Source: Hyphococcus flavus (GTDB taxonomy: Bacteria > Pseudomonadota > Alphaproteobacteria > Caulobacterales > Parvularculaceae). From it: DNA of 64,000 nt. Below, one piece after another: positions 17,769 to 20,634 of the stretch. The notes under the pieces were generated by a model, which searched no databases, was not told the DNA's origin, and worked only from the letters and a program-made list of their open reading frames with translations. Location: positions 2,743,501-2,807,500 of the forward strand of contig NZ_CP118166.1 in assembly GCF_028748065.1 (NCBI RefSeq), read 5' to 3'. The first letter of the stretch is position 1, and each line of letters starts with the position of its first letter. The translations under genes were made by a program, and so were the position numbers.

Positions 17769-19039
17769 GCCGGGTTCATATTATCGGCGCCGGGCTTTCC
17801 GGCCTTGCGGCGGCAGTGCGCCTTATCGAAAATGACATGAAGGTCACCGTTTATGAAGGCGCGGGGCAGGCGGGTGGTCGTTGCCGCACGTTCTACGACA
17901 AGCACCTTGAACGTGAAATCGACAACGGCAACCACCTGATTATGTCGGGCAACAAGTCGGCGTTGTCTTACATGCAGCGGATTGGCGCGGAAGACCCGCT
18001 CACCGGCCCGCCATTCGCCATGTATCCCTTTGTTGATGTGCAGTCCGGCAAACGCTGGACGGTGCGCATCAATGAAGGGCCGATCCCGTTCTGGGTCTTC
18101 GACAAACAATGGCGCGTGCCGGACACAGGCGTCATGGATTACGTCAAAGCGGCCGGAATTGCCTTTGCAGATAAAGATAAAACCGTCGCAGAGGTCGTTG
18201 ATCAAAAAAGTCCGCTCTATGAGCGTTTCTGGGAGCCGCTGACGCTGGCGGTGCTGAACACCACGCCCGCGAAAGGCCAGGCAAAACTGTTGTGGCGCGT
18301 CATTCGCGAAACGTTTCTGCTGGGCGGTCAGGCGTCAATACCGCTGACGGCGCGGACGGGTCTCGGCCATGCTTTCATCGATCCGGCGGTTAAGTTTATT
18401 GAGCAAAACGGCGGCGTGGTGCGACTCGGCGCGCGCGTGCGCAGCGTCTGGATGGAGGGCGGCGAGGTGACGACGCTTAACTTCGCCGATGAAACCGTGA
18501 CGCTCGAAGAAGGCGACAAGGTTATCTTCGCCATTCCGCCGACACGGCTGAAGGACTTGTTGCCTGATGTCGACCCGCCCGAAGACGACGCCAGCATTTT
18601 GAATATCCATTATCGCATGGCGAAGCCTGTCCCGACCAAGGCGTTGGGCGAGGGACCGTTCATCGGCATGATCGGCTCTGACGGACAATGGGCGTTCGTG
18701 CGCGATGATGTCATTAGTCTGACGACATCAGCGTCAAATGCAATTGGTACGGACGACCGGCCCAATGACGACGTGGTGGCGAAAATCTGGCGCGAAACGC
18801 AAATCGCGCTTGATCTCGGCAATGAGGAATACGAACGCGTTCGCGTGATCCGCGAAAAACGCGCAACGCCCGATCAGTCGCCTGCCGGCGCGCGCAAACG
18901 CCTCAAACCGGATACTCAATGGCGCAATCTTTTCCTCGCCGGCGATCATATCGACACCGGCGTGCCCGCAACAATTGAGGGATCGATCAGGTCGGGTGAG
19001 AGAGCGGCTGAGTTGGCGACTACTGTTATGGGCAAATGA
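17765..19039 (+). CDS. hpnE: Hydroxysqualene reductase/dehydroxylase HpnE
   Basis: 424 residues. FAD-dependent amine-oxidase-type fold: N-terminal dinucleotide motif GAGLSGLAAAV (8-18), VYEGAGQAGGRC, and the C-terminal FAD motif LFLAGDHIDTGVPATIEGS with SGERAAE. HpnE is the squalene-associated flavoenzyme that removes the hydroxyl from hydroxysqualene, giving squalene. ATGA overlap with hpnD. It is the last clearly hopanoid gene of the block; the stop lies one base before an AT-rich orphan gene, where the squalene-hopene cyclase gene is often found in related clusters. Confidence 0.95.
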   Translation: MSRVHIIGAGLSGLAAAVRLIENDMKVTVYEGAGQAGGRCRTFYDKHLEREIDNGNHLIMSGNKSALSYMQRIGAEDPLTGPPFAMYPFVDVQSGKRWTVRINEGPIPFWVFDKQWRVPDTGVMDYVKAAGIAFADKDKTVAEVVDQKSPLYERFWEPLTLAVLNTTPAKGQAKLLWRVIRETFLLGGQASIPLTARTGLGHAFIDPAVKFIEQNGGVVRLGARVRSVWMEGGEVTTLNFADETVTLEEGDKVIFAIPPTRLKDLLPDVDPPEDDASILNIHYRMAKPVPTKALGEGPFIGMIGSDGQWAFVRDDVISLTTSASNAIGTDDRPNDDVVAKIWRETQIALDLGNEEYERVRVIREKRATPDQSPAGARKRLKPDTQWRNLFLAGDHIDTGVPATIEGSIRSGERAAELATTVMGK

Positions 19040-19040
19040 A

Positions 19041-19565
19041 ATGGACATTGTTGAAGTAATGTTACCCGGGGTTTTGGTTGCAGTTTTGTCTTATTCTCTT
19101 GTTTTTTTGTTGAAATCATCAGGTTCAAAGAAAGTTGAGGAAGATAGCGCTGGTAGCATTCGCCTTTCCTATTCTCCGGGGCTCCATGTCTATGGCGGAC
19201 TAATGGTGCTGATGCTTAGTTTTGGTTGTGCATCGGTCATATTGCCTTTCTGGCTTGATATGGAAGGAGCTGGATCATTGTTTGTATTCATGGGAGTTGC
19301 AATAATTTTCATGGCTTTATGGGGGATTTATGCCGGATACGGTGGGCGAGTAAGTTACAGCGATGATGGCGTTACTTACATAGGTATAAGGCGAACAACT
19401 CAGTACACGTGGGATGATATAGAATCTCTGCAAGATGGTATATGGGCGCAGTACATGAAAACGAAAGATACAAAACTGGTACTGTCAAAAACACTTACTG
19501 GATATCAACAATTTTCTGCTGAATGCGCAAAAAGAGGAGTGCATATACCATCAACAAAAGTTTGA
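19041..19565 (+). CDS. AT-rich orphan: membrane protein with PH-like domain
   Basis: 174 residues beginning one base after the hpnE stop, so probably coupled to it. There is an N-terminal helix (about 6-24) and two further hydrophobic helices (about 50-70 and 80-99). A soluble C-terminal part (GGRVSYSDDGVTYIGIRR to KRGVHIPSTKV) looks like the beta-sandwich of bacterial PH-like membrane proteins. The composition is strikingly unlike its neighbours: 19081-19140 is 19/60 G+C, whereas flanking hpnE sequence is very G+C-rich. That suggests recent acquisition. No family is assigned with confidence; no link to hopanoid chemistry is visible. Confidence 0.6.
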   Translation: MDIVEVMLPGVLVAVLSYSLVFLLKSSGSKKVEEDSAGSIRLSYSPGLHVYGGLMVLMLSFGCASVILPFWLDMEGAGSLFVFMGVAIIFMALWGIYAGYGGRVSYSDDGVTYIGIRRTTQYTWDDIESLQDGIWAQYMKTKDTKLVLSKTLTGYQQFSAECAKRGVHIPSTKV

Positions 19566-19694: not shown

Positions 19695-20495
19695 GTGCCA
19701 AGCTTTATCGGCGTCATCTGCGGACTGAAATCCGAAGCGGCGGTCGTTTCGGCGAGCGTCGATCAATCAAAAATCCGCATCGGCGTCTCGGGCGCCAACG
19801 CCGCGCGTGCGGAAGAAATCGCCAAAGAATTATGCGAGCAGGGCGCGAGTGCGATCATATCCGTAGGTGTTTCCGGGGGGCTCGATCCGGCGCTGAAGCC
19901 TGGCGATCTGATCATTGGAGAGACCGTTATCGCCGATGACGGGTCAGTATATGCGAGTGACCGGTATTTGATGGCGGCTATTCAATCCGCTCACCCCGGC
20001 GAAAGCCGGGGTCCAGAAAAATCCGGCAGGATGGATCCCGGCCCGGCCGCAAAGCGGCCAAATCAAAAACAGCGCGCCTTCGCGCGCGGGCGCCGGGATG
20101 TCCGGAGTGGGTACAGATTTGCAAGTCTTTTCGGCGCGGATGAAATCATCGACAGCACAACAATAAAATCTGCACTGTATCATAATCACGGGTGCCTCGC
20201 GGTCGATATGGAAAGCCACGGCGCGGCGCGTGCGGCGGCGCGGGCCGGGGCGCCGTTTCTCGCTATCCGCGCGATCGCCGACCCGGCGGACCGCGCATTA
20301 CCCAAAGCCGCGCTTAATGCTGTCGCATCGGACGGTTCAACACGCGTGTTGCAAACGCTTGTGGCCGCGTTGCGCGACCCCAAGCAGTTTCCGGAATTGA
20401 TGAAGCTTGGCGCCGACAGCGCCGCTGCGACGAAAACGCTGCGCCGCGACCTCGGCCCGCTTTTTGAAATCTTGTTCAAAAACCTAGACGTTTAA
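19695..20495 (+). CDS. hpnG: Hopanoid nucleoside phosphorylase HpnG, with an inserted palindromic peptide
   Basis: 266 residues from GTG 19695 (ACAGGAG upstream). It belongs to the nucleoside phosphorylase/MTA nucleosidase family; VGVSGGLDPALKPGDLII and the catalytic-region VDMESHGAARAAARAGAPF are clear. HpnG removes adenine from adenosylhopane, giving ribosylhopane. The protein is longer than I expect for HpnG (roughly 210-230). The excess is the stretch from about residue 98 to 140, encoded by a GC-rich palindromic repeat (19982-20107) translated in frame, giving Arg/Gly/Pro-rich sequence. The insert replaces a surface region between conserved strands, so activity may survive; this is untested. 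Confidence 0.85.
   Translation: MPSFIGVICGLKSEAAVVSASVDQSKIRIGVSGANAARAEEIAKELCEQGASAIISVGVSGGLDPALKPGDLIIGETVIADDGSVYASDRYLMAAIQSAHPGESRGPEKSGRMDPGPAAKRPNQKQRAFARGRRDVRSGYRFASLFGADEIIDSTTIKSALYHNHGCLAVDMESHGAARAAARAGAPFLAIRAIADPADRALPKAALNAVASDGSTRVLQTLVAALRDPKQFPELMKLGADSAAATKTLRRDLGPLFEILFKNLDV
19982..20107 (+). repeat. Palindromic element inside hpnG (copy A)
   Basis: Complex nested palindrome. Left hairpin CCCCGGC-GAAA-GCCGGGG (19994-20011), followed by GTCCAG. Then a branched unit: outer arms ATCCCGGC (20035-20042) and GCCGGGAT (20092-20099) enclose GGCCGC-AAA-GCGGCC (20045-20059) and a GCGCGC pair (20072-20087). It shares the TCAATCC, CGCTCA and CCGGGGTCCAG blocks with copy B 540 nt downstream. 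The whole unit stays in the hpnG frame without a stop. Confidence 0.75.
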
Positions 20496-20520: not shown

Positions 20521-20634
20521 TCAATCCCCGCTCACTCCGGCGCAAGCCGGGGTCCAGTCGGACAAACATGTCGGGCTTCGCCCGGCTTTATTTCATTCGC
20601 TGGATCCCGGTTTTCACCGGGATGAGCGGTGTGG
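20521..20634 (+). repeat. Palindromic element downstream of hpnG (copy B)
   Basis: Intergenic copy, 25 nt after the hpnG stop. The left end (CGCTCACTCCGGCGCAAGCC then GGGGTCCAG) and right end (CTGGATCCCGGTTTTCACC then GGGATGAGCGGTG) are inverted repeats of each other, with a smaller GGGC-TTC-GCCC hairpin between. The left end is nearly identical to copy A. It may double as a terminator for hpnG and for the convergent minus-strand gene, though it has no T-run. Confidence 0.75.

Follow-up and report, generated by a model that had tools for sequence, protein, structure and literature searches.

A composite palindromic insert read in frame within hpnG of Hyphococcus flavus, and palindromes in the same loop in related genomes

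The window analyzed here is the whole 64,000-nucleotide stretch of the Hyphococcus flavus genome (NZ_CP118166.1, positions 2,743,501 to 2,807,500; this genome is called G000 below), and feature coordinates refer to it. It carries hpnG, which has HpnD, HpnE, HpnH, and IspH as its neighbors. An uncharacterized 196-aa open reading frame at 18975-19565 lies between hpnE and hpnG and overlaps the end of hpnE. The best NCBIfam match of the hpnG product is TIGR03468, found in two stretches and scoring 178.2 bits against a curated cut-off of 187.1, which is not reached. The features discussed below are as follows.

19695-20495, plus strand: hpnG, 266 aa with the insert; hopanoid-associated phosphorylase family, PNP/MTAN fold; TIGR03468 (two stretches) and PF01048
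19986-20105, plus strand: whole in-frame insert, codons 98-137, 40 aa (SAHPGES...RRDVR); boundaries from alignment and residue counts from PGDL
19987-20016, plus strand: left REP arm, 30 nt, with CCGCTC tag, 8-bp stem, GAAA loop, and CCAG tail; CM R1 54.5 bits, E 1.7e-7 in its own genome
20017-20031, plus strand: inter-arm spacer, 15 nt; same length in G058, G008, G022, G061, G009, and G001
20032-20042, minus strand: right REP arm, inner half TGGATCCCGGC; uninterrupted in the sister genome G058
20043-20089 (about 47 nt), plus strand: nested second repeat, with hairpins at 20045-20059 and 20072-20087
about 20092-20105, minus strand: right REP arm, outer half GCCGGGATGTCCGG; the inverted arm that closes the insert
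20528-20629, plus strand: extragenic dimer belonging to the same REP family, 102 bp, central hairpin present

The first-pass annotation of this DNA had described a palindromic repeat taken up in frame by hpnG, and the insert is indeed open in the hpnG reading frame. DNA folding of 19985-20115 was better than that of all 200 shuffles (z -3.7), as was RNA folding of 19986-20105 (200/200, z -5.3). The annotation had also treated the insert as a single element of about 120 bp; its extent holds as a 40-codon insert, but two elements are present. The insert is composite, consisting of a head-to-head dimer of REP-like arms and an unrelated double-hairpin repeat lodged in the right hairpin. A close relative had further been placed downstream of the gene, and the block CCCCGGCGAAAGCCGGGGTCCAG at 19994-20016 does recur with 2 mismatches at 20535-20557, 541 nt on, within a whole-arm relative of the left arm at 20528-20557; two matches to the block were reached in 0 of 100 shuffles. 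This downstream copy is a long form whose central hairpin is absent from the hpnG copy. Most of the complete extragenic copies examined in G000 carry a central hairpin between their arms, whereas the hpnG copy has the 15-nt spacer instead and a right hairpin split by about 47 nt.

The enzyme core of HpnG is kept and the insert is floppy in the predicted structure. An AlphaFold (AF2) model of the window protein, built on a 43-row alignment, has a mean pLDDT of 90.7, with the core above 90 and block means of 53-65 for residues 101-140, which lie between a helix (90-98) and a strand (140-147). The closest PDB matches to this model are MTA/SAH nucleosidases. It could be supposed that the insert inactivated hpnG and that the gene is now a decaying relic, and the score below the curated cut-off would fit such a view, though it is likewise missed by 34 of the 44 hpnG-bearing genomes of the family (and exceeded in 10 of 62 family genomes). 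Speaking against decay, no stop codons were found within the matched stretches of inserted hpnG genes, the residues invariant across 43 HpnG sequences are retained, and the G000 and G058 genes differ, outside the compared part of the insert, at 98 third positions versus 38 amino acids. Together with the confidently predicted core, these observations make a relic very improbable.

The first-pass annotation had proposed a genome search for the repeat block, and this search revealed a dispersed family: CCCCGGCGAAAGCCGGGGTCCAG gave 22 matches in G000 at up to 2 mismatches, the hpnG copy included, and its reversed control gave none. A covariance model of the 30-nt arm gave at least 49 matches at E up to 0.1, a lower bound, as 150 of 3507 first-look candidates were scored. 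These arms form 29 elements, 20 of which are inverted pairs with their tags outside, and 19 of the 20 pairs measure 99-106 nt. The arm has a stem of 8 pairs and a GAAA-type loop; its tag is GCTC in most arms listed, with variants GATC, GGTC, and GTTC and one G000 arm (L005) reading CGTC, and the CCAG tail is found in 20 of 22 aligned arms. Chance low complexity as the source of the palindromes is ruled out by the dispersed copies together with the reversed and shuffled controls. Two pairs of inverted arms are much further apart, spanning 854 bp (G000:C1:3019485-3020338, L018) and 451 bp (G000:C1:3241114-3241564, L021) end to end; such widely spaced arms may bound larger elements with internal sequence.

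REPINs, which are associated with RAYT transposases, are units of two inverted REP arms, and the arm pairs seen here are alike in this respect; the Y1 transposase of that system (PF01797) is, however, absent from G000. A RAYT as the mover of the element thus finds no support, with 0 matches to PF01797 in G000 in a search whose control gave matches in 5 of 14. Across the family, PF01797 is present in 12 of 62 genomes, namely in 4 of the 12 that have an hpnG insert and in 8 of the remaining 50.

Each of the 20 paired elements of G000 is free of stops in one frame or more, although its length must also fit for an in-frame insertion. Among the 29 elements, the hpnG copy is the only one lying in an open reading frame of more than 150 aa that spans an element, which answers the suggestion of the first-pass annotation that intragenic copies be counted. 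Apart from hpnG, there are 13 open reading frames of 80-150 aa that span an element (10 elements in all), and two longer frames overlap the edge of an element. Four of the 13 were compared with Pfam; three matched no family, and one is a glyoxalase whose match runs from residue 26 on, so that the repeat probably lies before the true start of that protein. In the relatives, 16 regions were selected from among the in-frame peptide matches listed, and four proteins from their open reading frames were tested against Pfam, three of them matching no family and one being of rhodanese type (G004); this look at other intragenic copies covers selected matches and is no census. The rhodanese-type protein (L232, G004:C130:4145-4696) ends in the repeat-encoded AHSRESGNP...MDPRLRGDERS, a C-terminal capture.

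The repeat nested in the right arm represents a family of its own, with the pattern CCGC..GCGG, a short spacer, and GCGCGCCTTCGCGCGC. Its strict two-hairpin pattern occurs in 19 of 28 genomes of the genus, with a reversed control of 0. G016 has 46 matches, some of them in tandem, and G000 has a single one, the hpnG copy. The tandem arrays of G016 (L135:651-761) have a 46-bp period. As the hpnG of the sister G058 contains the REP insert without the nested repeat, nesting was probably a later event. In G013, too, the corresponding hairpin of the hpnG insert contains this second repeat, as a partial copy.

The search of the family covered 62 genomes, of which 44 yielded an HpnG that was compared, and it included the alignment with relatives that had been proposed as a check for a gap. 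A palindromic insert occupies this HpnG loop in 12 of the 44, and the other 32 have none. With these 32 empty loops and the dispersed copies of the block in G000, neither of the two results named by the first-pass annotation as contradicting its reading was obtained. The inserted genomes are G000, G001, G003, G008, G009, G013, G015, G022, G058, G060, and G061 and, in another genus, G043; several genomes are MAGs, and hpnG of G001 is cut by the end of its contig. No such insert was found in 15 HpnG sequences from outside the family (L071-L085). In G060, the insert is a different palindrome, with the ends TTCATCCTGAGGAG, in the same loop; its motif has 49 matches in the G060 genome, two of them inside hpnG, against 0 for the control. 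In G043, a REP insert begins 34 residues after PGDL, that is, offset by 5 codons from the position used in the genus of the window. The only two arm matches of the G043 genome (up to 2 mismatches) are the two inside hpnG (G043:C160:8272-8353), and its source family may therefore be gone.

All 11 REP-type inserts in hpnG are read in the hydrophilic frame (AH-GES-RGP ... DP-RR-DER, with variants), and no target-site duplication was seen by eye. Near this loop, the HpnG of G007 (L130) is extended by an unrelated stretch that has no REP arm. One could ask whether this is simply a GC-rich loop of highly variable length whose likeness to a repeat arose by chance. Loop length does vary without palindromes, the loops of G007 and G063 being longer; the conservation of the arms across inserts, the at least 49 model matches, and the empty reversed control in G000 nevertheless make this exceedingly improbable. 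The first-pass annotation had also put the addition at roughly 40 residues, which agrees with the 40 codons found but is incomplete, as most species with an insert lack some of the host codons on its right side.

How many insertions this distribution reflects was approached with two trees. On a tree of HpnD, HpnE, HpnH, and IspH, built with a quick method for 41 of the 44 genomes (G067, G069, and G072 were dropped, having too few neighboring genes), the inserted state needs 6 changes, and starred branches force all 6; in this tree, resolution is poor at the base of the genus, and the G070 branch is very long. On an HpnG tree computed without the insert region, 7 changes are needed (6-8 over the bootstrap), of which 4 are forced. 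Constraining the REP-inserted alleles of the genus to one clade was rejected (p-AU about 1e-130), and the same test rules out that a single lineage of inserted alleles spread horizontally. There is good support for at least three events: the REP insertion in the genus of the window, the different palindrome in G060, and the offset REP in the other genus. About six or seven insertion events in this loop are most likely.

An alternative to repeated insertion would be that one insert was gained at the base of the genus, after which precise losses occurred and the surviving copies diverged locally or were converted; only G060 and G043 would then be separate events. Several shared details are what common descent would leave: the start codon is identical in 10 of 10 same-genus REP inserts (29 residues after PGDL), five inserts from three clades are exactly 75 nt long, the spacer is 15 nt in seven inserts, and the loss of host codons to the right is common to several clades. 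However, one gain within the genus would need 11 losses, each restoring the PGDL-to-FG distance of 40-42 residues (seen in 15 of 16 uninserted same-genus proteins) even though most inserts have lost host codons, and clades differ from one another in spacer sequence and in arm dialect. A gain-only model for the genus also reached a log likelihood of -15.3 against -20.5 for a loss-only model (G060 counted as empty); this preference of 5.3 log units ignores the shared position and length of the inserts and rests on the quick tree. Gains thus fit better than losses, whereas shared position and length favor common descent, and on balance we regard a single ancestral insertion as unlikely.

After insertion, the palindrome appears to have escaped the usual divergence at silent sites. 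Between G022 and G061, 0 of 16 fourfold sites differ in the insert compared with 44 of 123 in the rest of hpnG (Fisher p 0.0015), and 0 of 26 third positions compared with 81 of 227 (p 2e-5). Between G000 and G058, over the 19 codons that run from the left arm up to where the right arm begins, the corresponding counts are 0 of 10 versus 49 of 110 (p 0.004) and 1 of 19 versus 98 of 232 (p 7e-4). The left-arm codons alone give 0 of 6 versus 61 of 116 fourfold sites between G000 and G008 (p 0.014). The freeze rests on few sites, and within the G000-G058 insert the difference between arms (2/55) and spacer (3/15) is not significant (p 0.06).

The stems mostly remain paired. Ten distinct hpnG left arms are 90% paired, and double-change stem cells number 12 against 3.7 in shuffles (0/500); counted by pairs (3; 132/500 shuffles) or by pair types (4; 474/500), covariation does not exceed the shuffles, and it therefore rests on the cell counts, which are inflated by relatedness. 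The left arms resemble the other copies of their own genomes, with a mean identity of 0.845 versus 0.802 when permuted (p 4e-4; ten genomes, uneven pools). The pools comprised all 69 arms for G015, 17 of 22 matches for G009, 7 left arms for G061, 9 left arms for G013, and one arm for G001. The likeness persists in six genomes with complete lists (p 0.005) and in an inherited clade of six (p 0.011), yet in only 2 of 10 cases is the own genome the top-ranking one.

It is conceivable that the palindrome is kept for a role in DNA or RNA, such as an mRNA hairpin or a protein-binding site within hpnG, the peptide being incidental. The frozen silent sites, the paired stems, and the strong RNA fold would all suit such a role; on the other hand, 32 of 44 relatives do without the palindrome, the lineage of the window has tolerated a nested insert that splits one stem, and gene conversion gives the same pattern, so that we hold a nucleic-acid role to be doubtful. 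The freeze may instead stem from gene conversion by the other copies of the genome, or from a constraint shared with them, and the data do not separate these two.

The element is known in kind. The available text of PMC3733652 describes CGTC-tagged REPs, mainly of Alphaproteobacteria, with a terminal CGTC tag (variants TGTC and CCTC), a stem of 8-9 bp with complementary A-T in its first two positions, a loop of 4-5 nt, and an unpaired CCA tail; they are predominantly head-to-head dimers, no dedicated transposase is known, and some copies are intragenic, the dimers mostly encoding 20-30 residues. The hpnG-type arm shares the 8-bp stem, the 4-nt loop, the CCA tail, the head-to-head dimers, and the intragenic copies. 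Among the ten distinct hpnG left arms, the first stem pair is A-T in 6 and unpaired in 4, and the second is T-A in 6 and C-G in 3. As its dominant tag is GCTC and not CGTC, the element is not filed here as a CGTC-tagged REP, though it works like one. The only same-site case found in the available text of that source is recB of two Xanthomonas species, in which different REPs sit at about the same site (PMC3733652).

The first-pass annotation had likened the insert to the Rickettsia palindromic elements, which lie in frame in genes for functional proteins, and had assumed a different sequence. The hpnG insert is likewise in frame, with the enzyme core conserved; the assumption about sequence holds only in part: as far as the available text of Di Nocera 2013 (PMC3733652) goes, RPE-4 and RPE-6 of R. 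conorii are CGTC REPs, RPE-1 being longer, and the anatomy of that superfamily is shared except for the tag. What differs from Rickettsia is that the palindromes occur here in a hopanoid producer, in one gene and repeatedly at one site, and are nested by a second repeat family. Enterobacterial RU/ERIC-type MITEs are, by description, comparable small mobile repeats within genes that carry reading frames, but their sizes (103-168 bp in the available text of PMC2759123 and PMC2229807) differ. A literature search at the level of titles and abstract openings found no palindromes in hpnG, which is not proof of absence. The novelty lies in captures that recur at a single codon and in the freezing of silent sites. 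The first-pass annotation had mentioned neither this conservation at silent sites nor the same-codon recurrence across relatives, and it had missed the nested repeat as well.

Taken together, we consider it probable that a dispersed, non-autonomous palindromic repeat inserted in hpnG, where it is translated and tolerated, and that this loop was hit repeatedly. A head-to-head dimer of the GCTC-tagged arm would have entered at the end of a surface helix, before a core beta-strand. Since several frames of this dimer are open, it would have been translated, and tolerated, as a linker that is hydrophilic and flexible (AHPGES-RGP ... MDPG-RR-DER). The same loop would have been hit again elsewhere in the family, and in the lineage of the window the tip of the right hairpin would then have taken up the second double-hairpin repeat. 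Once within the gene, the arms would not have drifted as ordinary codons do. A stronger version, which we put forward tentatively and think rather unlikely, is that the loop is a true hotspot: at least two unrelated palindrome families would be repeatedly directed to, and kept at, one codon, further repeats would join through hairpin tips, and the palindrome would be maintained as DNA, its silent sites frozen and its arms pulled towards the other copies of the genome, while it serves as a protein linker.

Single cases of palindromes in genes leave open whether they are accidents. The hpnG loop occurs both filled and empty across dozens of related species, in which the elements and the depth of nesting vary, and so constitutes a natural experiment. 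Three questions thereby become testable: how a target is chosen by elements that lack a known transposase, whether palindromes in frame behave neutrally, and whether gene conversion of intragenic repeats outpaces the point mutation of codons.
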